Virus record (IMG/VR): IMGVR_UViG_3300028025_002828
Span: 1-64,000 of that record
Direction: 5' to 3' (one strand)
DNA length: 64,000 bases
From: a virus
Shown in pieces: positions 212 to 62,868 of the stretch. Within the stretch, counting starts at the first letter, position 1. Each line of letters opens with the position of its first letter. The translations under genes were made by a program, and so were the position numbers. The notes below the pieces were generated by a model. That model saw only the letters and a list, made by a program, of their open reading frames with translations, ran no database searches and was not told the origin of the DNA.

Positions 212-556
212 ATGGAACCTATCCTATCGTTTGTATCATTAATCGCATTTATAGTGTTCCTAATATTTGTTTATATGTTTGGCTTTGTCCGTGGGTATGC
301 TAAGAGGCAACAAGAAGCCATAGAGAAACTTAATGTGTTCGCAGAGATTTTACAAGAACAAGAGGCAGAGAACATAATCCCTGTGAGGATAGAACGCCAA
401 AATGATATATTTTATGTATACCATGAAAAGGATTCGTTGTTCCTGGCACAAGGCAAATCTCTAGAAGAGATACGCGATCTATTAACCAAGAGATTTCCTG
501 GCAAGCGTGTAGTCGCCAGCAATGACAACGTGAAAGATGTGGGGATTATATCATGA
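212..556 (+). CDS. Small single-pass membrane protein of the replication operon
   Basis: 114 residues. An N-terminal hydrophobic segment (about residues 5-27) is followed by a positively charged turn (RGYAKRQQ) and a soluble, mixed-charge domain of about 80 residues. It lies between gp44 and gp62, starting 1 nt after gp44 stops and overlapping gp62 by 4 nt (ATGA). I do not recognise a family. Similar small membrane proteins sit at this place in some marine T4-like phages. Function unknown; membrane anchoring is predicted from hydrophobicity only. Confidence 0.75.
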   Translation: MEPILSFVSLIAFIVFLIFVYMFGFVRGYAKRQQEAIEKLNVFAEILQEQEAENIIPVRIERQNDIFYVYHEKDSLFLAQGKSLEEIRDLLTKRFPGKRVVASNDNVKDVGIIS

Positions 557-939
557 GCAAGCTGTCTCCATTCGATTTCTTAAATGCTATAAATTCCACC
601 AAAGAAGATCTATTAGAAAAAGATCCACAAAACATAAAAGACTACAACTCTTTTATGGTTAACAAAGGTCTTTCTTATTTCCCTGATACAGTTCTACAGG
701 CAAATGAGATGAATCGACTTTATGATGCACCTAAAAAATGGCAATTTCAATATTTACTAAATAGTATTACCAAGAAGAAAAGGTTCTCGAAATGGCACAA
801 GGCAGATGTGTCCCGAGAGGTTTCTTTGGTCATGGAATACTATGGATATTCCACTGAAAAGGCGACTAGAGTTTTGGATATATTAACTCCAGAACAATTG
901 ACAAATATTGAAGAACGATTATACAAAGGTGGAACATAA
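553..939 (+). CDS. 62: Sliding-clamp loader small subunit gp62
   Basis: 128 residues, shorter than T4 gp62 (about 187) but like the versions in aquatic T4-like phages. Recognisable stretches are SPFDFLNAINSTKEDL, YNSFMVNKGLSYFPDTVLQA and KRFSKWHKAD, which match the T4 pattern 'YSKFMVENALSQFP' and 'GKRYGKWAK'. The protein is the non-ATPase subunit of the gp44/gp62 clamp loader. It overlaps the preceding gene by 4 nt, and its stop (TAATG) overlaps the regA start by 1 nt, so the genes are translationally coupled. Confidence 0.9.
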   Translation: MSKLSPFDFLNAINSTKEDLLEKDPQNIKDYNSFMVNKGLSYFPDTVLQANEMNRLYDAPKKWQFQYLLNSITKKKRFSKWHKADVSREVSLVMEYYGYSTEKATRVLDILTPEQLTNIEERLYKGGT

Positions 940-1355
940 TGAGCGTCGAAATGATCTATTATGACTGGACGTCAGAATCATTACTAGAAGTAGTATTAGA
1001 TGAACCAGACAATTTTTTAAAAATTCGTGAAACTCTAACACGAATTGGTATCGCATCTAGAAAAGACAAAAAACTTTATCAGTCTTGCCACATATTACAT
1101 AAGCAAGGCAGATATTTTATTGTTCATTTCAAAGAACTCTTTGCGCTAGATGGTAAAGAATCCAACATTACAGCAAATGATATTGAGCGAAGAAACACTA
1201 TCGCCAAACTGCTGGCTGATTGGGAACTTTTAACTATTCTTGATTCCAAGAAAGCAGAGCAACAAGCATCACTTTCCCAAATTAAGGTTGTCTCTTTTAA
1301 AGAGAAAAACGAATGGGAACTTGTACCCAAGTATAACATCGGTAAGAAAAAATAA
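939..1355 (+). CDS. regA: RegA translational repressor of early mRNAs
   Basis: 138 residues; T4 RegA has 122. The core is nearly colinear with T4: FLKIRETLTRIGIASRKDK, LYQSCHILHKQGRYFIVHFK, then VVSFKEKNEWELVPKYNIG at the C-terminus. RegA binds start regions of early phage mRNAs and blocks ribosome loading. Compared with T4 there is an N-terminal extension of about 15 residues (MSVEMIYYDWTSESL). It is the last gene of the operon, followed by a strong hairpin terminator. Confidence 0.95.
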   Translation: MSVEMIYYDWTSESLLEVVLDEPDNFLKIRETLTRIGIASRKDKKLYQSCHILHKQGRYFIVHFKELFALDGKESNITANDIERRNTIAKLLADWELLTILDSKKAEQQASLSQIKVVSFKEKNEWELVPKYNIGKKK

Positions 1356-1374: not shown

Positions 1375-1402
1375 TCTAATGATTTTCATTAGAGTGTTTT
1401 TT
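1375..1402 (+). terminator. Rho-independent terminator after regA
   Basis: A perfect 8-bp stem, TCTAATGA (1375-1382) and TCATTAGA (1386-1393), with a 3-nt loop, is followed by GTGTTTTTTG. It lies 20 nt after the regA stop and separates the clamp-loader operon from pqqA. Confidence 0.8.
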
Positions 1403-1415
1403 GTTGTTTCCGCTA

Positions 1416-1442
1416 TATAATTATACGGACATTATTCCGTAT
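1416..1442 (+). promoter_or_regulatory. Possible promoter -10 and 5'UTR hairpin of pqqA
   Basis: TATAAT at 1416-1421 could be a -10 box, but the -35 position (around 1393-1398) is poor. Immediately downstream is a perfect 7-bp hairpin, ATACGGA (1423-1429) with TCCGTAT (1436-1442), loop CATTAT. It ends 8 nt before the AAGGAG ribosome site of pqqA (1451-1456) and could regulate translation or stabilise the short mRNA. Confidence 0.45.
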
Positions 1443-1463
1443 CTTTAATTAAGGAGAATTATT

Positions 1464-1535
1464 ATGTGGACAACACCAGCAGCTACTGAAATGCGTTTTG
1501 GATTCGAAGTAACTATGTACGTAATGAATAGATAA
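1464..1535 (+). CDS. pqqA: PqqA, precursor peptide of pyrroloquinoline quinone
   Basis: A 23-residue peptide with an ideal ribosome site (AAGGAG, 7 nt before ATG). It has exactly the length and landmark positions of bacterial PqqA: MW at 1-2, P5, R11, G13, Glu15 and Tyr19 in GFEVTMY (13-19), and the terminal NR. In PQQ synthesis the Glu and Tyr side chains are cross-linked by the radical-SAM enzyme PqqE with the chaperone PqqD, then excised. No pqqB-F gene is in the window, so the peptide would feed host enzymes. It is a monocistronic unit between two terminators. Identity is strong because every diagnostic residue is present; the benefit to the phage (more PQQ for dehydrogenases) is inference. 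Confidence 0.92.
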   Translation: MWTTPAATEMRFGFEVTMYVMNR

Positions 1536-1556: not shown

Positions 1557-1580
1557 AAAACCCACTTCGGTGGGTTTTTT
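1557..1580 (+). terminator. Rho-independent terminator after pqqA
   Basis: CCCAC (1561-1565), TTCG tetraloop, GTGGG (1570-1574), flanked by AAAA and TTTTTT. It begins 21 nt after the pqqA stop. Confidence 0.92.
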
Positions 1581-1582
1581 GT

Positions 1583-1590
1583 TATAAATA
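1583..1590 (+). promoter_or_regulatory. T4-type late promoter TATAAATA
   Basis: Exact TATAAATA octamer, the late promoter recognised in T4 by gp55/gp33 with the clamp. It directly follows the pqqA terminator and would drive the structured leader and the gene at 1738, plus hsp20, rubrerythrin and rubredoxin. Confidence 0.7.
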
Positions 1591-2570: not shown

Positions 2571-3020
2571 ATGACAGCAACACTACATAACCTTGAGAGC
2601 GCACTGGCTGGAGAGTCAATGGCGCATATAAAGTATCGTTACTTTGCAAAAATTGCTCGTGAAGAGGGATTTGAAGATGTAGCGAAACATTTTGAACATA
2701 CTGCGGATCAAGAAATTAAACATGCTTGGGGTCACCTCGAGTTGCTAATCGGCAAGCCAACTACTAAGGAATGTTTGCAGAAAGCAATTGATGGCGAGAC
2801 TTATGAGTATACAGAAATGTACCCACAGTTTGAAGCAATTGCTATAAGAGAAAAAGATCTCGAAGCTGAGAAAGAAATGCGTGGTCAGATTCAAGAATCA
2901 TTTGAACACGCAGAAGCATTTAAGGCTGTATTGGCTAAAGCTGAAAAGCGTTTTGCTGCTTTGAAGAAAGTAGAAGAGCGCCACGCTAATGCTTACAAAC
3001 AGGTCATGGGGAGTTTATAA
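2571..3020 (+). CDS. Rubrerythrin-type diiron ferritin-like protein
   Basis: 149 residues of the erythrin/ferritin-like four-helix fold. The iron-ligand motifs are visible: E-x-x-H-type (GESMAHIKYRYFAKIA, near residue 15-30; HFEHTADQEIKHAWGHLELL, residues 41-60) and a second-half pair around EKEMRGQIQESFEHAEAFKA. Rubrerythrins reduce hydrogen peroxide with electrons from a rubredoxin. The usual C-terminal rubredoxin domain is missing here but is encoded as a separate gene that overlaps the stop codon by 1 nt. Likely role: peroxide detoxification or iron handling during infection (inference). Confidence 0.88.
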   Translation: MTATLHNLESALAGESMAHIKYRYFAKIAREEGFEDVAKHFEHTADQEIKHAWGHLELLIGKPTTKECLQKAIDGETYEYTEMYPQFEAIAIREKDLEAEKEMRGQIQESFEHAEAFKAVLAKAEKRFAALKKVEERHANAYKQVMGSL

Positions 3021-3148
3021 TGGATTACGTATGTATAGTATGTGGCCACGTACATGATGAGGAAACAGAAGGTAAGTGGGATGAACTTCCCGATGACTTT
3101 GAATGCCCAGAGTGTGGTGTTGGTAAAGAAGATTATTACGAGATGTAA
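3020..3148 (+). CDS. Rubredoxin-like iron protein, 42 residues
   Basis: Starts within the rubrerythrin stop (TAATG). Four cysteines sit in two knuckles, C5-x-x-C8 (VCIVCGH) and C29-x-x-C32 (FECPECGVG), with W20 and the P24-D25-D26-F27 segment typical of rubredoxins (W..LP.DF.CP.CG). It is about ten residues shorter than free-standing rubredoxins. Together with the upstream gene it rebuilds a rubrerythrin as two polypeptides; it would pass electrons to the diiron site. Zn binding instead of Fe is possible. Confidence 0.88.
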   Translation: MDYVCIVCGHVHDEETEGKWDELPDDFECPECGVGKEDYYEM

Positions 3149-33822: not shown

Positions 33823-34815
33823 ATGATCAAAAAAGTAGACCATAAACTTACAGATACACGAGATGCGTTCAAACCATTTCATTATCCTTGGGCATATGAG
33901 GCATGGCTAAAACATGAGCAAGCGCACTGGTTACATACAGAAGTGCCAATGTCGGAAGATGTGAAAGACTGGAAGAAAAAACTAACACCACCACAAAAGC
34001 ATTTCCTAACAAACATTTTTCGTTTCTTCACACAAGGCGACATTGACGTTGCTGGTGGTTACGTAAAAAATTATCTACCATATTTTCCACAACCAGAAAT
34101 TCGTATGATGCTTATGGGATTTGCTGCTCGTGAAGCATTACACATTGCAGCATATAGTCATCTGATTGAAACTATCGGTCTACCAGATACAACTTATAAT
34201 GACTTCTTAGAATATCAAGAGATGAAAGATAAACATGACTACGTTCTTGACTTGAGTTCGAAGAACGGAGATAAACAATCAACTGCCACCCATATCGCCG
34301 TGTTCAGTGCTTTCACTGAAGGAATGCAGTTGTTCTCATCTTTCATTATGTTGTTGAACTTTCCTCGTCATGGTATGATGAAAGGTATGGGACAAATCGT
34401 TACTTGGTCAATCGTTGATGAAACAATGCATGCTGAGAATATGATTAAATTGTTCCGCACATATATTGAAGAGAACAAAGAAATATGGAATGATGAACTT
34501 AAAGCAAAGATTTATACTATCGCTGAAAAGATGGTTGAACTTGAAGACAAGTTTATCGATCTAAGTTTTAGCATGGGTGACATGCCAGATCTTACACCAG
34601 AAGATGTCAAGAAATATATCAGATACATTGCTGATAGACGTTTAATTTCTCTTGGATTGAAGGGAATATATAAGGTTAAGAAAAATCCTTTACCGTGGGT
34701 AGAGGAAATGATTAATGCACCGACACATGGTAACTTCTTTGAAAATCGTGTTACTGATTATGCCAAAGGTGCACTCAAAGGCGATTGGTCAGAAGTATGG
34801 GGTAAAGCAGCATAA
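33823..34815 (+). CDS. nrdB: Ribonucleotide reductase small subunit NrdB
   Basis: 330 residues. Diiron ligands are visible in FFTQGDIDVAG, FAAREALHIAAYSHLIE (E, H), FTEGMQLFSSFIML and SIVDETMHAENMIKLF (E..H). Class I R2 protein that generates the tyrosyl (or other) radical for NrdA. Tyr in the expected helix (AAYSHLI) supports a tyrosyl-radical type. Its stop overlaps the desaturase start by 1 nt. Confidence 0.94.
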   Translation: MIKKVDHKLTDTRDAFKPFHYPWAYEAWLKHEQAHWLHTEVPMSEDVKDWKKKLTPPQKHFLTNIFRFFTQGDIDVAGGYVKNYLPYFPQPEIRMMLMGFAAREALHIAAYSHLIETIGLPDTTYNDFLEYQEMKDKHDYVLDLSSKNGDKQSTATHIAVFSAFTEGMQLFSSFIMLLNFPRHGMMKGMGQIVTWSIVDETMHAENMIKLFRTYIEENKEIWNDELKAKIYTIAEKMVELEDKFIDLSFSMGDMPDLTPEDVKKYIRYIADRRLISLGLKGIYKVKKNPLPWVEEMINAPTHGNFFENRVTDYAKGALKGDWSEVWGKAA

Positions 34816-35525
34816 TGATTGAGTTAATTTATGTACTAGTAATGACACACATTACTATTGTTTGCGTAACCCTTTATTTACATAGAGGACAAACACACAG
34901 AGGGATTGAGTTTAATCCTATCCTGTCACACTTTATGCGTTTTTGGTTGTGGTTTACAACTGGCATGGTCACTAAACAATGGGTGGCTATTCATCGTAAA
35001 CACCATCAAACAACAGAAACAAAAGAAGATCCGCACAGTCCAATGTTCTATGGCTTAAAGCGTGTGTTGTTTGGTGGTGCGTTTCTTTACCACGACGCAA
35101 GCAAAGATAAAGATCTTGTTAGTAAATATGGAGTGGGAACCCCAGATGATTGGATGGAGAAAAATGTATACACTAAACATTCTCGTCTAGGGATTACTTT
35201 GTTATTAATCGTAAATTTACTTTGTTTTTCATGGATAGGTTTATTGATTTGGGGTATTCAAATGATATGGATTCCGTTCTGGGCAGCAGGTGTTGTCAAC
35301 GGAATTGGGCATTTTTGGGGATATCGTAACGGCGAAACAAGAGACAATAGTAAAAACATATTTCCTCTTGGAATTATTATTGGTGGAGAAGAACTACATA
35401 ATAATCATCACTTAGAACCAGCAAATCCTAAGTTAAGTAGTAGGTGGTTCGAGTTTGATATTGGTTGGATGTGGTTAACTCTATTTACTAATTTAAACTT
35501 GGCAAAAGTAAAAAATGGCAGTTAA
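34815..35525 (+). CDS. Membrane fatty-acid desaturase (first copy)
   Basis: 236 residues with four hydrophobic segments and the three His boxes of delta-9-type acyl desaturases: HRGQTH (about residues 23-28), HRKHH (61-65) and HNNHH (near 195). It would insert a double bond into fatty acyl chains in the host membrane. A second, more distant desaturase lies at 57421. Follows nrdB directly, so the two diiron enzymes are co-transcribed. Confidence 0.88.
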   Translation: MIELIYVLVMTHITIVCVTLYLHRGQTHRGIEFNPILSHFMRFWLWFTTGMVTKQWVAIHRKHHQTTETKEDPHSPMFYGLKRVLFGGAFLYHDASKDKDLVSKYGVGTPDDWMEKNVYTKHSRLGITLLLIVNLLCFSWIGLLIWGIQMIWIPFWAAGVVNGIGHFWGYRNGETRDNSKNIFPLGIIIGGEELHNNHHLEPANPKLSSRWFEFDIGWMWLTLFTNLNLAKVKNGS

Positions 35526-56958: not shown

Positions 56959-57427
56959 TGCATTTATGGACACTGCGGAGAGATTCGCAGAGTTGAGTTC
57001 TGCTGTCCGACTGAAGGTAGGTGCGGTAGTTGTTCAAGAAAATCGTATCATCTCGATTGGCTACAATGGTATGCCTTCTGGATGGACAAACGAATGTGAA
57101 AATAAGATTTATGTTGATGCAACATTAGAAGAATCAATGTTATATCAGAGCAAGGTAGATGTCTACCTTGATGTAAATAAAAAATTATATGAATTAAAAA
57201 CAAAAGATGAGGTTATTCATGCTGAAGCAAATGCTATATCGAAACTGGCACGTGATGGTGAGCGAGCAGCTGGTGCCACAATGTTTTGTACTCACGCACC
57301 TTGCATCCAATGCGCTAAAATCATTTACGGTGCTGGTATAAATACATTCTACTATCGTTCTCAATATCGAGACAATGACGGATTGGAGTTTTTAAAGAAA
57401 TGCAATATTCAGGTAGAGCAATGTTAA
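56939..57427 (+). CDS. dCMP deaminase
   Basis: 162 residues from ATG 56939 (AAGGA 9 nt upstream; ATG at 56933 is the alternative). Zinc motif HAEANAI (94-100) and PCIQC (121-125) with an insert between GYNGMPSGWTNEC and the active site as in T4 Cd. It converts dCMP to dUMP to feed ThyX. Overlaps the desaturase by 7 nt. Confidence 0.93.
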   Translation: MKQKWIDAFMDTAERFAELSSAVRLKVGAVVVQENRIISIGYNGMPSGWTNECENKIYVDATLEESMLYQSKVDVYLDVNKKLYELKTKDEVIHAEANAISKLARDGERAAGATMFCTHAPCIQCAKIIYGAGINTFYYRSQYRDNDGLEFLKKCNIQVEQC

Positions 57428-58170
57428 TGTTGGCAGTGCGGACTAGTCTTAGTCTAGCATGTCATGTGTTTGTCATAATGATGCTGGTGTCAGCAGGTGT
57501 TTCATTTACTGCAGTTTTAATTGCCATCCCAATGATTTTAGTTGGTGGCTTTGCTGTCACAGGATTTTTACATAGATCTATTGCTCATAGAACATACACA
57601 ATCACCAAAGGGTGGTTAAGGAAAACGCTACTGTTCTCCTCGTTGTTCAGTTTAATCGGAACACCACTAGGATGGGCGATAGTGCATAGAATGCATCACA
57701 GAAATCTAGATGGACCAGGAGATCCTCACAGTCCATGGCAGATAGGATTCTTTAGAAGTTACTGTCACTTGTGGCAACTCGATGAGAAGACAGTTGATCT
57801 TGGTGGGTGTCGAGATATCATAACCAACCGAGAGTTGTTGTTTTTCCACAAACACTGGTTGAAGATAACTCTTGTAATTTGGTTGACTTTTTATATGATA
57901 TGGGGTATGATAGGTCTATATGCGATAGGGTTAGCTGGTGTGTTTGCTTTCCATGCCTTTGGTGTTGCGAATGCGGTATGTCATTACGGAAGAGCAAGTG
58001 GTGATATCGTAGACCTACCTAAAATGAGTTGGCTAAACTTCGGTGAGAACTTTCATAGTTACCATCACAGTTTTCCTAGTGCGTATAGATTTACTGCAAC
58101 AAAATCAGACCCATCGGCAACTATCATTGAGTGGTTGATGAAAAATAATTTAGCAGTAGTTCGAAAGTGA
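57421..58170 (+). CDS. Membrane fatty-acid desaturase (second copy)
   Basis: 249 residues from ATG 57421 (AGGTAG upstream; ATG 57400 possible). Several hydrophobic segments and three His boxes: HRSIAH, HRMHH and HSYHH, with GDPHSPW after the second box as in acyl-CoA desaturases. More like bacterial delta-9 desaturases than the copy at 34815. It may keep the host membrane fluid or change it during infection. Confidence 0.88.
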   Translation: MLMLAVRTSLSLACHVFVIMMLVSAGVSFTAVLIAIPMILVGGFAVTGFLHRSIAHRTYTITKGWLRKTLLFSSLFSLIGTPLGWAIVHRMHHRNLDGPGDPHSPWQIGFFRSYCHLWQLDEKTVDLGGCRDIITNRELLFFHKHWLKITLVIWLTFYMIWGMIGLYAIGLAGVFAFHAFGVANAVCHYGRASGDIVDLPKMSWLNFGENFHSYHHSFPSAYRFTATKSDPSATIIEWLMKNNLAVVRK

Positions 58171-58490: not shown

Positions 58491-58564
58491 TCCCTGATAG
58501 TGTAGCGGTAACACAGTTGACTTTGACTCAACTATCGCAGGTTCGAATCCTGCTCGGGGTGCCA
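58491..58564 (+). tRNA. tRNA-Gln (TTG)
   Basis: Anticodon stem GTTGA/TCAAC with loop CTTTGAC; encoded CCA. Acceptor TCCCTGA/TCGGGGT has a U1-U72 mismatch, with weak pair 1-72 as in other tRNA-Gln. First of the cluster. Confidence 0.9.
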
Positions 58565-58568
58565 AAAT

Positions 58569-58642
58569 GGGGGTGAAACTTTAAGGTGAAGTAACTGGCT
58601 TTTAACCAGTAAAACTCGGATCGTTCCCGAGCACCCCTACCA
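58569..58642 (+). tRNA. tRNA-Lys (TTT)
   Basis: Loop CTTTTAA between ACTGG/CCAGT; acceptor GGGGGTG/CACCCC T with A73 and CCA. Confidence 0.9.
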
Positions 58643-58655
58643 AGAATTCTTTGGT

Positions 58656-58729
58656 GTGACCATAACTTAATGGTAAAGTCGTGGATTGTGATTCCGCTTA
58701 TCTGGGTTCAATTCCCAGTGGTCACCCCA
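58656..58729 (+). tRNA. tRNA-His (GTG)
   Basis: Loop TTGTGAT between GTGGA/TCCGC; acceptor GTGACCA/TGGTCAC, discriminator C73, CCA. The base at position -1 in the gene is T, not the G-1 usual in bacterial tRNA-His. Confidence 0.88.
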
Positions 58730-58738
58730 AAGAATTTT

Positions 58739-58813
58739 AGTGATATAGCAAAGTGGTAATGCGCTTCCTTCATACGGAAGTTACCGTAGGTTCGAATCCT
58801 ACTATCACTACCA
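58739..58813 (+). tRNA. tRNA with CAT anticodon (Met elongator or Ile2)
   Basis: Loop TTCATAC between CTTCC/GGAAG; acceptor AGTGATA/TATCACT, A73, CCA. D-stem has C11-G24 (elongator type). Could be tRNA-Ile read as lysidine-AU; identity cannot be settled by eye. Confidence 0.88.
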
Positions 58814-58818
58814 ACATC

Positions 58819-58893
58819 GGGCTGTTAGTATACGGGGTATTATTCCTGCCTTGCACGTAGGAGAAAAGGGTTCGAGTCCCTTACGGTCCACCA
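58819..58893 (+). tRNA. tRNA-Ala (TGC)
   Basis: Loop CTTGCAC; acceptor GGGCTGT/ACGGTCC with the G3-U70 pair that marks alanine tRNAs; A73, CCA. Confidence 0.9.
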
Positions 58894-58898
58894 GTTAT

Positions 58899-58974
58899 TA
58901 CCGTGTAGCTCAATTGGCAGAGCTCTGGTCTCCAAAACCAGCGGTTGGCGGTTCAACTCCGTTCACGGTAGCCA
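58899..58974 (+). tRNA. tRNA-Trp (CCA)
   Basis: Loop CTCCAAA between CTGGT/ACCAG; acceptor TACCGTG/CACGGTA, G73, CCA. Confidence 0.9.
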
Positions 58975-58980
58975 GATTAT

Positions 58981-59072
58981 GGAAGATGATGCAGGTGCGT
59001 TGGTGCGCCGACCAGCCTTGAAAACTGGGTTCTCAGAAATGGGATGGGGTTCGACTCCTCCGTCTTCCGCCA
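58981..59072 (+). tRNA. tRNA-Ser (TGA)
   Basis: Loop CTTGAAA; acceptor GGAAGAT/GTCTTCC, G73, CCA; long variable arm (class II), total 92 nt. Confidence 0.9.
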
Positions 59073-59081
59073 AAATTATGT

Positions 59082-59156
59082 GCCTCGTTAACTCAGTGGT
59101 AGAGTGTCTCTTTTACACGGAGAAGGTCGGCAGTTCGAATCTGTCACGAGGTACCA
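59082..59156 (+). tRNA. tRNA-Val (TAC)
   Basis: Loop TTTACAC; acceptor GCCTCGT/ACGAGGT, A73, CCA. Confidence 0.9.
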
Positions 59157-59163
59157 AAATTTT

Positions 59164-59239
59164 ACCGAGGTAGCTCAGTTGGTAGAGCACTTGTTTGAAG
59201 CACAAGGTGTGGGCGGTTCGATCCCGTCTCTCGGTACCA
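59164..59239 (+). tRNA. tRNA-Phe (GAA)
   Basis: Loop TTGAAGC between CTTGT/ACAAG; acceptor ACCGAGG/TCTCGGT, A73, CCA. Confidence 0.92.
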
Positions 59240-59247
59240 AAAGTTAT

Positions 59248-59322
59248 TGCCGTGTAGCTCAGAGGAAGAGCAATCGCTTGATAAGCGATAGGTCGACATT
59301 TCAAAATTGTCCATGGCAACCA
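59248..59322 (+). tRNA. tRNA-Ile (GAT)
   Basis: Loop TTGATAA between ATCGC/GCGAT; acceptor TGCCGTG/CATGGCA, A73, CCA. T-loop is TTCAAAA. Confidence 0.88.
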
Positions 59323-59327
59323 GTTAT

Positions 59328-59404
59328 ATCCCAATGGCGCAATTGGTAGACGCACCTCTCTCAAAAGGAGGGTGTTGAGAGTTCGAGTCTCTCTTGGGAT
59401 ACCA
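59328..59404 (+). tRNA. tRNA-Leu (CAA), short variable loop
   Basis: Loop CTCAAAA between CCTCT/GGAGG; acceptor ATCCCAA/TTGGGAT, A73, CCA. Variable region is only 5 nt (GTGTT), whereas bacterial tRNA-Leu normally has a long arm. Confidence 0.85.
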
Positions 59405-59409
59405 GATTT

Positions 59410-59485
59410 ACCTCATTAGTAAAATGGAAGATTACACTGTGCTACGAACGCAGGGGTGGAGGTTCGATTCCTTCATGAGGTGCCA
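59410..59485 (+). tRNA. tRNA-Arg (ACG)
   Basis: Loop CTACGAA between CTGTG/CGCAG; acceptor ACCTCAT/ATGAGGT, G73, CCA. A34 would need host TadA to become inosine. Confidence 0.9.
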
Positions 59486-59491
59486 GAGTTA

Positions 59492-59581
59492 GGAAGATGG
59501 GCAGGACGGTAATGCAGCAGTTTGCTAAACTGTAGATTCACGGAAGTGGGTCATAGGGTTCGATTCCCTAATCTTCCACCA
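59492..59581 (+). tRNA. tRNA-Ser (GCT)
   Basis: Loop TTGCTAA; acceptor GGAAGAT/ATCTTCC, A73, CCA; class II long variable arm, 90 nt. Confidence 0.9.
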
Positions 59582-59582
59582 G

Positions 59583-59611
59583 TTGACATTAAATATGAAG
59601 TGAGTTATGAT
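59583..59611 (+). promoter_or_regulatory. Promoter inside the tRNA cluster
   Basis: TTGACA (59583-59588), 17 bp, TATGAT (59606-59611); start expected at about 59618-59620, immediately before the next tRNA. Confidence 0.75.
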
Positions 59612-59620
59612 AGTAATAGA

Positions 59621-59697
59621 GCGGATGTGACGGAATTGGTATACGTATCAGACTTAAAATCTGAGTTCTGTGGGTTCGACTCCCACCATCCGCACCA
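59621..59697 (+). tRNA. tRNA-Leu (TAA), short variable loop
   Basis: Loop CTTAAAA between TCAGA/TCTGA; acceptor GCGGATG/CATCCGC, A73, CCA. Variable region only 5 nt (GTTCT). Confidence 0.88.
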
Positions 59698-59704
59698 AAG
59701 ATAG

Positions 59705-59779
59705 GGGCTGGTAGCTTAATGGTAAAGCAGTGAACTCATAATTCATTGAGTCCTGGTTCAATTCCAGGTCAGCCCACCA
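59705..59779 (+). tRNA. tRNA with CAT anticodon (Met elongator or Ile2)
   Basis: Loop CTCATAA between GTGAA/TTCAT; acceptor GGGCTGG/TCAGCCC, A73, CCA. C11-G24 elongator-type D stem. Confidence 0.9.
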
Positions 59780-59796
59780 AACAGAAAGGATAGGAA

Positions 59797-60360
59797 ATGA
59801 ATGTTCTAGCACTAGACCAAAGTGGAATGCCACGGAAGTGGATAAATTTTGAAGATGCTGTTACATATCAAGCAAAGGGTATGGTAAATTGGTCACTTGG
59901 CGAAACGATTAAAGTGTTTCGTGGTGGTCACAATGATCAAGGAATTCAATCAGTAATTAGCATACCATCTATCATCGCTGTTCGTGGGTCTTCATTGAAG
60001 ATGAGTGGTAAAGTTATTTTGACAAACAAATCTCTATTCAGTAGAGATAGAAATCTTTGCGCATACTGTGGTGATACATTTTCATTGTCGCATCTTTCGC
60101 GTGATCATGTTATGCCAAAGTGTGAGGGTGGTAGAGATGTATGGACAAATGTTGTTACTGCGTGTAAACCTTGTAACATAAAGAAGGGTCGTAAGATCTT
60201 AGAGACTACTACTATGAAACTTCTCTATGTTCCGTATGAGCCGAATCATTTTGAAAACATGATTCTGATGAATAGAAATATTCTTGCTGATCAGATGGAA
60301 TATTTGATGTCGGGTGTTCCGAAAAATAGTAGAGTACGAAAAGATGTGGGTGTGCACTGA
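59797..60360 (+). CDS. HNH endonuclease
   Basis: 187 residues. RNLCAYCGDTFSLSHLSRDH is the zinc/HNH start, VMPKCEGGRDVWTNVVTACK the Asn-His core, and CKPCNIKKG the second zinc pair. N-terminal LALDQSGMPRKWINFEDAV matches a free-standing HNH family of bacteria and phages. It sits within the tRNA cluster, and its last 15 nt form the 5' acceptor strand of tRNA-Cys. It may be a mobile or homing-type gene; no intron is visible. Confidence 0.88.
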   Translation: MNVLALDQSGMPRKWINFEDAVTYQAKGMVNWSLGETIKVFRGGHNDQGIQSVISIPSIIAVRGSSLKMSGKVILTNKSLFSRDRNLCAYCGDTFSLSHLSRDHVMPKCEGGRDVWTNVVTACKPCNIKKGRKILETTTMKLLYVPYEPNHFENMILMNRNILADQMEYLMSGVPKNSRVRKDVGVH

Positions 60361-60421
60361 ATGGTTAGGTAGCTGATTGCAAATCAGTTTAATGCAGGTT
60401 CGAGTCCTGTCACCCACTCCA
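60346..60421 (+). tRNA. tRNA-Cys (GCA), overlapping the HNH gene
   Basis: Loop TTGCAAA; acceptor GTGGGTG/CACCCAC, discriminator U73 (Cys identity), CCA. The first 15 nt are the HNH stop region. Confidence 0.9.
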
Positions 60422-60428
60422 AAGGTTT

Positions 60429-60493
60429 AACCCTACTCACTGTAGGGGCTTCCAAAGATAATGTTTGACATTAAATAGAGGTTCATGTATAAT
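60429..60493 (+). promoter_or_regulatory. Hairpin plus promoter of the large structured RNA
   Basis: CCCTAC/GTAGGG hairpin (60431-60447), then TTGACA (60465-60470), 17 bp, TATAAT (60488-60493). Start expected near 60500. Confidence 0.85.
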
Positions 60494-60499
60494 TACTAT

Positions 60500-61208
60500 A
60501 TTGAGTTGAAAATGCTTGATGATGTGAAAATAAACACCACTTGGCGACCACTGAGGAACAGTGGTAAAACCAAAGACCCATGCCAACATGGGTCCACCGA
60601 GTGTAAGACAGAGGGATCGGATCCCCGAGGTCGCCAGTTGAAAAATTGCTGGCAAATGTTCTTTAAAAAGGTATGCGGTTTCGTGATTGTCTGCCACGTC
60701 GGGAGACGTTAAAACAATCACACTTTGCACGATTCGTCTATCGGTTAGGACACATGGTTTTCATCCATGTAAGAGCGGTTCGACTCCGCTATCGTGTACC
60801 AGATTTAATTGCATTGGGTTGCCAAGCCAGTAGGTGATCTAGGAGAGGATAACCAATCGACGGATTGGCTCTCGCTAGGTTACATGAAAGATGGAAACGA
60901 AGTGGAGTTCTACAGGGATGTAGAATGATGAAGCGGATACGGTGGTCACGCTGGAACAACTTGAATTGTAATGTGAGAAAGCAGCCAATCGTAGGACGGC
61001 TACGTGGGCATCCGAGAACTCGGGATGCTGCTGATCATCCCAGTGTAATTAAATGTGGTATTAGTTTAGTGTTATCAAGGTATCGTCATAAGACGTTATG
61101 ACTACTCGACAGTTAGGGTGCGACTGAAACTGTCTGATATAACTGCTATTCGCTTGTCAGTGCTAGCTACATTGTTGACAAATAGGCAGATAACACTAAA
61201 CTAATATC
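60500..61208 (+). ncRNA. Large multi-domain structured RNA with embedded tRNA-Glu
   Basis: Driven by its own consensus promoter. Domain A: TGGCGACC (60542-60549) / GGTCGCCA (60629-60636) closing hairpins CCACTG/CAGTGG (loop AGGAA), GACCCATG/CATGGGTC (CCAA loop) and GGGAT/ATCCC. A further GTGATTGT/ACAATCAC arm (60683-60690, 60714-60721) is capped by ACGTC-GGGA-GACGT, a GNRA loop. tRNA-Glu follows. Domain B: a 16-bp helix (60803-60818 with 61039-61054, two G-U pairs) closes an arm 60834-60883, TTCTACA-GGGA-TGTAGAA (60908-60925), CGTAG/CTACG and GCATCC/GGATGC. Domain C: a 20-bp helix (61057-61076 with 61189-61208) closes three hairpins. Domains abut with 1-2 nt spacers. No long reading frame with a ribosome site fits. 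Size, ornament and tRNA context recall GOLLD/ROOL-type RNAs. Confidence 0.82.
60727..60801 (+). tRNA. tRNA-Glu (TTC), inside the large RNA
   Basis: Loop TTTTCAT between CATGG/CCATG; acceptor GCACGAT/ATCGTGT, A73, CCA. Flanked directly by helices of the large structured RNA. Confidence 0.9.
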
Positions 61209-61210
61209 AT

Positions 61211-61302
61211 GCGTGAACGGTAACGATGGTGGTGTTGCAGCAGACTGTAAATCTGTTCCCTCTGGGTAAACAATGGTGGTTCGAATCCATCTTCACGCAC
61301 CA
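61211..61302 (+). tRNA. tRNA-Tyr (GTA)
   Basis: Loop CTGTAAA between GCAGA/TCTGT; long variable arm; acceptor GCGTGAA/TTCACGC, A73, CCA. Starts 2 nt after the large RNA's last helix. Confidence 0.9.
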
Positions 61303-61309
61303 AATGTTA

Positions 61310-61384
61310 GGCTCGTTCGTATAATGGTCATTACGTCGGATTGTCTATCCGATCATGGGAGTTCGATTCTCCCACGAGTCGCCA
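61310..61384 (+). tRNA. tRNA-Asp (GTC)
   Basis: Loop TTGTCTA between TCGGA/TCCGA; acceptor GGCTCGT/ACGAGTC, G73, CCA. Confidence 0.92.
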
Positions 61385-61393
61385 AGTTTTTAT

Positions 61394-61467
61394 AGCGGAT
61401 TAGAGAAATGGTATCTCAGCAGTCTCATACGCTGCAGTTGGTGGTTCGACTCCATCATCCGCAACCA
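61394..61467 (+). tRNA. tRNA-fMet-like initiator (CAT)
   Basis: Loop CTCATAC between GCAGT/GCTGC. Initiator features: 1-72 is an A-A mismatch, D stem has A11-U24, and the 3' end CGCAACCA equals that of E. coli tRNA-fMet. It lacks the three G-C pairs of the initiator anticodon stem, so the assignment is likely but not certain. Confidence 0.8.
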
Positions 61468-61475
61468 GTTAGTCA

Positions 61476-61549
61476 GCCCTATTAGTATAATGGTATTACA
61501 CCTGTTTTGTAATCAGGTTACGGCAGTTCGATTCTGTCATGGGGCACCA
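61476..61549 (+). tRNA. tRNA-Thr (TGT)
   Basis: Loop TTTGTAA between CCTGT/TCAGG (U31-U39 mismatch); acceptor GCCCTAT/ATGGGGC, A73, CCA. Confidence 0.88.
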
Positions 61550-61583
61550 TTCGTTTGTTTTGATTTTTAGTATAGGAAAGAAA

Positions 61584-62156
61584 ATGGAAAAAGTTACACT
61601 TCGTAAAGCAAATGCAATTCAAGGCGAGATCCGTAGATTGATCGCAAGTAAAAATGCTAGTGAATCAATTAGCATCACGGAATTCACTGCAGATGTTGCA
61701 GAAGTTCTTGAGAAAGCAATGGATAATTTTGCTGTTGATGTTACACGTAAGGTAGCATTAAACACAGCATTGTATAACATTCGTAAGAGTGTTTCTCGGG
61801 CAAATGCCACTTCTGGCATCAGCGATCTACTTGCTGATATTGAGTTGATCGATGCAACTATGGCAATCTACAGTGGCATTAGCACTAAAGAAGTAGCTAA
61901 GTCTTTGACTGAGATTAATGCACGTGTTGAGAAAGTTAAAGCAGCACCAGCAGAAACACGTATGTATGGTCGTTACGATAATGTTGAAACATCTGTTGTT
62001 GAACAGAGCACTATCGACATTGCCAAAGATACAGTTAAAAAATTAAAACGTGAGAAGCAAAATGCTTCTGACAAACTATTGACGTTGAATGTCAATACAA
62101 CAATTGACATCTCTGATGTCGATGCGATGGTTTTGAAAGTAGAAGGTATTATTTAA
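61584..62156 (+). CDS. Conserved phage protein of unknown function
   Basis: 190 residues from ATG 61584 (AGGAAAG upstream). Helical: KVTLRKANAIQGEIRRLIAS and VTRKVALNTALYNIRKSVSR; beta-type end DKLLTLNVNTTIDISDVDAM. A protein with this start (VTLRKAN.IQ) is known to me from several phages without function. It interrupts the tRNA cluster between tRNA-Thr and a structured RNA; RNA binding is a speculation. Confidence 0.7.
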   Translation: MEKVTLRKANAIQGEIRRLIASKNASESISITEFTADVAEVLEKAMDNFAVDVTRKVALNTALYNIRKSVSRANATSGISDLLADIELIDATMAIYSGISTKEVAKSLTEINARVEKVKAAPAETRMYGRYDNVETSVVEQSTIDIAKDTVKKLKREKQNASDKLLTLNVNTTIDISDVDAMVLKVEGII

Positions 62157-62161
62157 GTTTT

Positions 62162-62403
62162 GAGGGACAATGCGTAGAGGATAGGGAATAGAGCAAAAAA
62201 CTAATACTTAAAAGTATTGGCTTTGGTCTTGAAAACCAACTCCTGACAAATTCGTCCAACCTTGTTGTTGCTCCACGATACACTAGACTGTTATAGTCGC
62301 TGCTTATTGCTTCGTGTTGTATAACTCTTGTGGGCTGTCCATTGCATATTGCACACTGCAAATTGCTTTGCGACTATTCGCTTGAATTGAAACATTGTTC
62401 CTC
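62162..62403 (+). ncRNA. Second structured RNA in the tRNA cluster
   Basis: Closed by an 11-bp helix, GAGGGACAATG (62162-62172) with CATTGTTCCTC (62393-62403), one G-U pair. Inside are GAGCAA (62191-62196) / TTGCTC (62268-62273) enclosing AATACT/AGTATT (62203-62218) and TTGGT-CTTGAAA-ACCAA (62223-62239), a 7-nt loop that looks like a TGA anticodon arm; and ATAGTCGC (62293-62300) / GCGACTAT (62370-62377). No coding frame. Begins just after the 62156 stop and ends 9 nt before tRNA-Leu. Confidence 0.68.
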
Positions 62404-62412
62404 ACCCTGTTA

Positions 62413-62489
62413 GCCCCGATGACGGAATTGGTATACGTGTTGGTCTTAGAAGCCAAATTTTGAGAGTTCGAGTCTCTCTTGGGGCACCA
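62413..62489 (+). tRNA. tRNA-Leu (TAG), short variable loop
   Basis: Loop CTTAGAA between TTGGT/GCCAA; acceptor GCCCCGA/TTGGGGC, A73, CCA. Variable region 5 nt (ATTTT). Confidence 0.88.
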
Positions 62490-62496
62490 ATTTTAT

Positions 62497-62572
62497 TCCG
62501 CAGTAGCTCAGTCGGTAGAGTAGATGACTGTTAATCATTTGGTCGGTGGTTCGAGCCCACCCTGTGGAGCCA
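62497..62572 (+). tRNA. tRNA-Asn (GTT)
   Basis: Loop CTGTTAA between GATGA/TCATT; acceptor TCCGCAG/CTGTGGA, G73, CCA. Confidence 0.9.
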
Positions 62573-62580
62573 ATTTTAAT

Positions 62581-62659
62581 CCGAGTGTAGGATAGTCTGG
62601 TTCATTCCGCTTGCTTTGGGAGCAAGATGTCGCAGGTTCGAATCCTGCCACTCGGACCA
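62581..62659 (+). tRNA. tRNA-Pro (TGG)
   Basis: Loop TTTGGGA between CTTGC/GCAAG; acceptor CCGAGTG/CACTCGG, A73, CCA. Confidence 0.9.
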
Positions 62660-62674
62660 TGCAATTTAATAAAC

Positions 62675-62703
62675 TTTACAATTTAGTTTTAGAAGAATAT
62701 AAT
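62675..62703 (+). promoter_or_regulatory. Promoter of the last two tRNAs
   Basis: TTTACA (62675-62680), 17 bp, TATAAT (62698-62703); start expected near 62710, at the tRNA-Gly gene. Confidence 0.8.
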
Positions 62704-62712
62704 AGAATTATC

Positions 62713-62786
62713 GCAGGATTAGTTTAATGGTAAAATGTCTTCCTTCCAAGTAGATGTCATCAGTTCGATTCTGATATCCTGCTCCA
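62713..62786 (+). tRNA. tRNA-Gly (TCC)
   Basis: Loop CTTCCAA between TCTTC/GTAGA (one mismatch); acceptor GCAGGAT/ATCCTGC, U73, CCA. Confidence 0.88.
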
Positions 62787-62793
62787 TTAACAT

Positions 62794-62868
62794 ACGGCAT
62801 TCGTTCAACGGATAGGACATGGTTCTTCTAAAGCCAGAATGGTGGTTCGATTCCTCCATGCCGTACCA
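62794..62868 (+). tRNA. tRNA-Arg (TCT)
   Basis: Loop CTTCTAA between TGGTT/AGCCA; acceptor ACGGCAT/ATGCCGT, A73, CCA. Last tRNA of the cluster. Confidence 0.9.

Follow-up and report, generated by a model that had tools for sequence, protein, structure and literature searches.

A host-like PqqA precursor gene and its candidate PQQ operator in phages of methylotrophic Methylophilaceae

Cyanophages carrying psbA supply a fast-consumed part of the energy metabolism of their host and leave the rest to the host. The phage pqqA gene considered here resembles psbA in this logic, although psbA encodes a reaction-centre protein whereas the PqqA peptide is a substrate that is itself turned into the cofactor, one PqqA being spent per PQQ made. 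Viral PqqA is already known as a kind, having been reported together with a viral methanol dehydrogenase in the Lake Baikal methylophage population VP_266 (Coutinho et al. 2020, PMC7678222). Like the present phage, VP_266 is T4-like, has a Methylophilaceae host and encodes a PqqA, which the accessible part of that account proposes to raise PQQ for methanol dehydrogenase; the same part treats it as a single case with a dehydrogenase and describes neither an operator nor a wider distribution, whereas no PQQ methanol dehydrogenase was found in the 71,292-base record analysed here. Viral pqqA also figures in a reservoir survey (PMC13188868). On the host side, Methylophilaceae have been described with 3-12 pqqA copies per genome and single pqqBCDE genes (PMC4109929), and one genome of the family with five differently expressed pqqA copies (PMC9851590). 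As for the papers describing the isolates, the term “pqq” is absent from two of them (PMC10580990, PMC8163748) and occurs only in the growth medium of a third (PMC9004378). The near-universality of pqqA in cultured methylophages and an operator shared with the host were not found in the open-licence literature, and constitute what is new here.

The analysed window is a stretch of 64,000 nucleotides covering positions 1 to 64,000 of the IMG/VR record IMGVR_UViG_3300028025_002828, and its relevant features are collected in Table 1. A first-pass annotation, made from the sequence alone, had proposed that a 23-codon frame of the window encodes a PqqA precursor with all hallmark residues (W2, P5, R11, G13, E15, Y19 and terminal NR). 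Both curated models confirm this frame, the peptide matching PF08042 over its full length with 40.3 bits (cut-off 21.1) and the NCBIfam equivalog TIGR02107 with 38.8 bits (cut-off 20), while a PqqA search of 14 control genomes gave no match. All the hallmark residues are present, including, as E15 and Y19, the glutamate and tyrosine of the E-x3-Y core that become PQQ. Judged from these matches, the gene is a genuine and complete PqqA, and the only copy in the whole record. The annotation had also described a ribosome site, a 5' hairpin and a terminator belonging to the gene, each of which was retrieved, though the folding score of the hairpin is low. Its statement that the window holds nothing else of the PQQ pathway now extends to the entire record, where neither PqqB nor PqqE was matched; PqqC was not matched either, in a search whose control was equally silent. 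More generally, PqqB was found in none of 44 phage records including this one, and PqqE was above its cut-off in none of them.

Table 1. Coordinates of pqqA, its candidate transcription and translation signals and its upstream neighbours in the window
Feature	Position	Strand	Basis
Clamp loader small subunit, gp62-type (context)	553..939	+	PF16790, phrog_225
regA-type translational repressor, upstream neighbour	939..1355	+	PF01818 162 bits, phrog_242
PQQ-operator-like palindrome CTAATGATTTTCATTAG; putative host transcription factor site	1376..1392	+	Host consensus, 0 mismatches
TATAAT, putative -10 element, 23 nt after palindrome	1416..1421	+	Sequence
Leader hairpin TACGGA-CATTAT-TCCGTA, at or near predicted transcript 5' end	1424..1441	+	z -1.8, weak
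Shine-Dalgarno AAGGAG	1451..1456	+	Sequence
pqqA, PQQ precursor peptide MWTTPAATEMRFGFEVTMYVMNR, 23 aa, stop TAA	1464..1535	+	PF08042 + TIGR02107
Intrinsic terminator of pqqA, with T run	1557..1583 (1557-1578 without the T run)	+	Terminator scan

In the T4-like source phage, genes of a gp62-type clamp loader and then of a RegA-type repressor lead directly up to pqqA, with hsp20 and gp43 located downstream. This position between regA and hsp20/gp43 sets the gene in a bona fide phage genome, and it is also present in completely sequenced isolates. The nearest phages of the annotated collection, mostly T4-like cyanophages, share about 54% polymerase identity with this one. A promoter scan upstream of pqqA found no sigma-70 promoter with both hexamers, the -35 being absent, and a permissive Rfam search around the gene returned only matches below gathering scores. 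The leader hairpin is kept, with a changed loop, in the four closest relatives (L241, L242, L312, L315). Among phage pqqA genes in general, a Shine-Dalgarno motif (AGGAG or a shorter form) precedes 133 out of 133, and a terminator follows 50 of 130, against 45 of 1003 other phage ORFs.

Other parts of the window also deserve mention. A structured RNA, which like the palindrome at 1376-1392 had escaped the first-pass annotation, lies at about 1596-1680 (to about 1715 with a terminator-like hairpin), after pqqA and before phasin-like and hsp20 genes (GACTTCACCTTAGGACCGCTAAG...AACCAGC). It is conserved in 15 aligned T4-like sequences, in a fold alignment that leaves out L066, with double-sided changes at 6 of its 19 predicted pairs, and also occurs in contigs where no pqqA was found, such as L243, L244, L252 and L269. 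Having no Rfam match at gathering score, it is possibly an undescribed leader or small RNA. Adjacent rubrerythrin and rubredoxin genes (2571-3145) stand beside hsp20, two proteins resembling membrane fatty acid desaturases, with histidine boxes read from the translation, are encoded at 34815-35525 and 57400-58170, and 25 tRNA genes covering most amino acids are clustered at 58491-62868.

The distribution of pqqA among phages was first approached by tblastn with the 23-residue peptide as query, for which 12 of 50,697 phage records gave a match. Nine of these belong to Methylophilales or Methylophilaceae phages (P19250A, MEP301, Venkman, MEP401, MEP402 and four Melnitz isolates), so that every cultured Methylophilaceae/Methylophilales phage record found, nine in total and of several unrelated types, has pqqA. 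Of the three others, one is a spring podovirus of unknown host and two are contigs that bear the name Acinetobacter phage MD-2021a (H11, H12); the contig inspected is bacterial, with pqqB, pqqC, pqqD and a radical SAM gene forming a complete pqq operon, the second has the same assembly name, and neither was counted as phage evidence. In the isolate regions opened, pqqA is unannotated, with either no feature there or an antisense hypothetical protein overlaid; annotation skips 23-codon genes, which would explain why phage pqqA has been missed so far. A degenerate DNA scan of IMG/VR revealed pqqA in at least 120 contigs; among the matches listed, 112 of 120 have proteins in common with this window or with a set of six phages, cultured or reference. 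The gene was recorded in 5 of 6 Venkman relatives of at least 22 kb (shorter contigs being uninformative) and in 7 of 41 gp43-relative records, many of which are fragments or may infect other hosts. Among pelagiphages sharing 48-50% of the terminase of Venkman, tblastn matched no pqqA. As for the related phage contigs, where the first-pass annotation had suggested looking for the gene, the four closest relatives, whose gp43 is 81-83% identical, keep the frame upstream of gp43.

Two further observations concern particular contigs. Three sequences (L026, L029, L084) encode a PqqA of methanotroph-like or other type (MKWETPSFEDLRFGFEVTMYINASN and similar), and the presence of phage terminase and portal genes with L026 and L029 suggests that pqqA may also occur in phages whose hosts are other PQQ users. 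The pqqA phage contig behind L046 (G178, 72,356 bases) encodes, in its region L378 3990-8784, a PQQ-dependent methanol dehydrogenase (TIGR03075, 608 bits) followed by a formate dehydrogenase alpha-like molybdopterin protein, together a possible viral methanol-oxidation module.

The sequence of the window gene points to the probable host. The annotation had suggested a PQQ-making, perhaps methylotrophic, host and an alignment with PqqA of Methylophilaceae and others; peptide and DNA both match this family best, with 92-94% DNA identity, several of the matches being from Methylotenera. Methylophilaceae are thus the likely host family, and they fit the suggestion, with PqqA in 120 out of 120 genomes and PqqE above cut-off in 117. 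The 120 genomes contain 1-12 pqqA copies (median 4) with a mostly single PqqE, and most of the streamlined genomes of 1.2-1.3 Mb still hold two or three. That so many pqqA copies accompany mostly one pqqE, even in streamlined genomes, suggests that substrate dosage matters, and this importance of PqqA supply would give a phage reason to bring another copy. Conversely, as most host genomes already hold several pqqA, the gain from one more is unproven.

The phage copies could be recent, functionless passengers derived from host pqqA, and the DNA of phage and host copies is indeed highly similar (median identity 0.91 at the best match), as such an origin would leave it. However, the phages have strongly diverged from one another at synonymous sites but keep the amino acids, pqqA is retained near gp43 among phages whose polymerases are 81-83% identical, and all the cultured methylophage records found have it, all of which makes a passenger status barely credible. 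In accordance, pN/pS is 0.19 in the copies found without a pattern (gp43 relatives and phage records) and 0.32 in the pattern-found set, as counted at the codons that the pattern left free. Phage pqqA is, on these ratios, under purifying selection; being homologous to a host metabolic gene (92-94% DNA identity) and selected in the phage (pN/pS 0.19), it is a putative auxiliary metabolic gene, one that would change host metabolism during infection.

Conservation reaches individual residues, W2, P5, R11, G13, E15, V16, T17 and Y19 being invariant in 133 viral copies, several of them fixed by the pattern in 120 of the 133. E15 and Y19 are also kept in the gp43-relative and phage-record copies, which were not chosen by pattern. 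The annotation had named a frame not conserved among close relatives, with substitutions at E15 or Y19, as evidence against its proposal; the frame is intact with both residues in the four closest relatives. A scan for E15 codons not beginning with G, outside which Asp, Gly, Ala and Val fall, found none, and a scan for Y19 codons not beginning with T, outside which Phe, Ser and Cys fall, found one broken copy; this single case (L320) diverges abruptly in mid-gene, is probably a chimeric contig and was set aside. These residues bear on the idea that the peptide is an inhibitor of host PQQ synthesis, or diverts it, by competing for PqqD/PqqE, or is modified for another role such as defence. Precursors of RiPPs in the vicinity of defence genes have indeed been discussed, one family among them being annotated as PqqA (PMC11118758). 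A competitor would however be expected to lose its reactive residues, whereas the cross-linked Glu15 and Tyr19 and the EVTxY core occur in every intact copy, many of the phage peptides are identical to a host PqqA, and one pqqA phage contig has its own PQQ methanol dehydrogenase. We therefore regard an inhibitory or other role as quite unlikely, and a PqqA feeding a PQQ-making methylotrophic host as the best-supported reading.

The regulatory context gives a second link with the host. The palindrome of the window, 72 bases before the pqqA start codon, is the sole one with two mismatches or fewer in the 64 kb, and its consensus (CTMATGA-N3-TCATKAG) also precedes host pqqA genes. A first set of 14 Methylophilaceae genomes, searched with at most one mismatch and with genes assigned from coordinates and fetched loci, contains 36 sites, distributed before pqqA (20), pqqB (9), proC (3) and other genes (4). 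Exact matches were found at 49 places in 23 of 30 other host genomes, against one place for the reversed control; one exact site inspected in each of the 23 precedes pqqA in 22 genomes and pqqB in one. The palindrome is thus almost dedicated to PQQ synthesis in Methylophilaceae genomes, and its identification as a Fur box was dropped, host sites being tied to pqq genes. The sites before an apparent proC, named from its translation, were one-mismatch palindromes of the streamlined genomes G019, G036 and G046 (L355, L356, L361). LuxR-type regulators of PQQ-dependent alcohol oxidation such as ErbR/AgmR and MxbM/MxaB would represent a plausible protein class for a dyad before pqq genes, although a link between them and this palindrome was not found in the open-licence literature.

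Among phages, a common upstream site of pqqA was found by expectation-maximisation. The host-derived consensus, with up to four mismatches, is present in 64 of 108 dereplicated pqqA upstreams against 129 of 2370 upstreams of other ORFs on the same contigs (p about 1e-46), an enrichment spanning phage pqqA of several lineages. A -10-like hexamer follows the palindrome by 21 nt in the largest phage class. Class II activators are usually located near -42, and it is near -42 that this spacing places the predicted dyad centre.

Instead of an operator, such a palindrome could form a hairpin in the RNA, or the terminator, of the gene upstream, and in T4-like relatives a T run does follow it; PqqA itself would be unaffected by this interpretation. 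Host sites argue against it, as 10 of 29 are hybrids of two half-sites (A with G, C with T), which breaks RNA pairing. An A or C at position 3 occurs freely with either T or G at position 15, which indicates a symmetry of DNA half-sites and not an RNA stem. Moreover, about 77-192 nt separate host sites from pqqA or pqqB downstream and the phage -10 spacing clusters at 21 nt, so that an RNA hairpin seems improbable. Several features nevertheless count against the host-operator reading: phage palindromes stand about 35 nt nearer to the start codon than those of hosts, many phages have one degenerate half-site, and about 40% of phage pqqA genes have no good match to the host consensus. In Venkman-type phages the palindrome and the ribosome site of a divergent gene may coincide in part. 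Chromosomal Methylophilaceae pqqA genes share with the phage gene a near-identical peptide, the same upstream palindrome and, for several copies, a solitary position outside pqqBCDE; the phage copies differ by a palindrome closer to the gene and a clustered -10 spacing. By carrying the host palindrome, the window pqqA looks like a member of the host PQQ regulon, binding of a factor being putative.

If the operator were the main point, multi-copy phage DNA would titrate the host PQQ regulator and the peptide would be a by-product. The occurrence of the palindrome in several lineages would suit such a decoy, which however needs no gene; a coding frame conserved to the residue, with ribosome sites throughout and pN/pS of 0.19-0.32, counts against titration, as do the many phages that have the peptide but a weak palindrome or none, and we consider it highly unlikely. 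We rather favour, with somewhat better than even confidence, a regulatory capture: Methylophilaceae PQQ synthesis would be under a dedicated operator (pqq box) and an unnamed regulator, and unrelated phage lineages would have placed their substrate-peptide gene under that operator, enlarging the host regulon without any enzyme or regulator of their own.

Under the substrate-supply reading, pqqA would be transcribed on its own, from a promoter equipped with the operator of the host pqqA copies and of the pqqB operon, and this host operator would let the PQQ or methanol regulator of the host set its expression. Host PqqD, PqqE, PqqB and PqqC would turn the phage peptide into PQQ, one peptide per cofactor, the phage bringing the consumed substrate and leaving the reusable enzymes to the host. 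Extra PqqA would then keep PQQ-dependent methanol dehydrogenase working during infection, and a substrate peptide alone, under a host operator, would be a cheap way to sustain methanol oxidation. The sequences themselves show what the gene is, how it is conserved and distributed, that PqqB and PqqE matches are missing, that the operator is shared and how the promoter is laid out, whereas binding of a host activator, processing by host enzymes, the gain in PQQ and the benefit to the phage are the steps that we infer. With these steps, we consider it probable that phages supply the consumed PQQ substrate while plugged into the host PQQ regulon, and that methanol dehydrogenase is thereby sustained during infection.

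If this holds, PqqA would be among the most regular metabolic genes of phages of methanol-eaters, which would provide a consumed substrate peptide, and not an enzyme, along with a borrowed host regulatory site. It would also give the PQQ genes of Methylophilaceae a concrete proposed operator, and phages of methylotrophs a cheap sequence marker.
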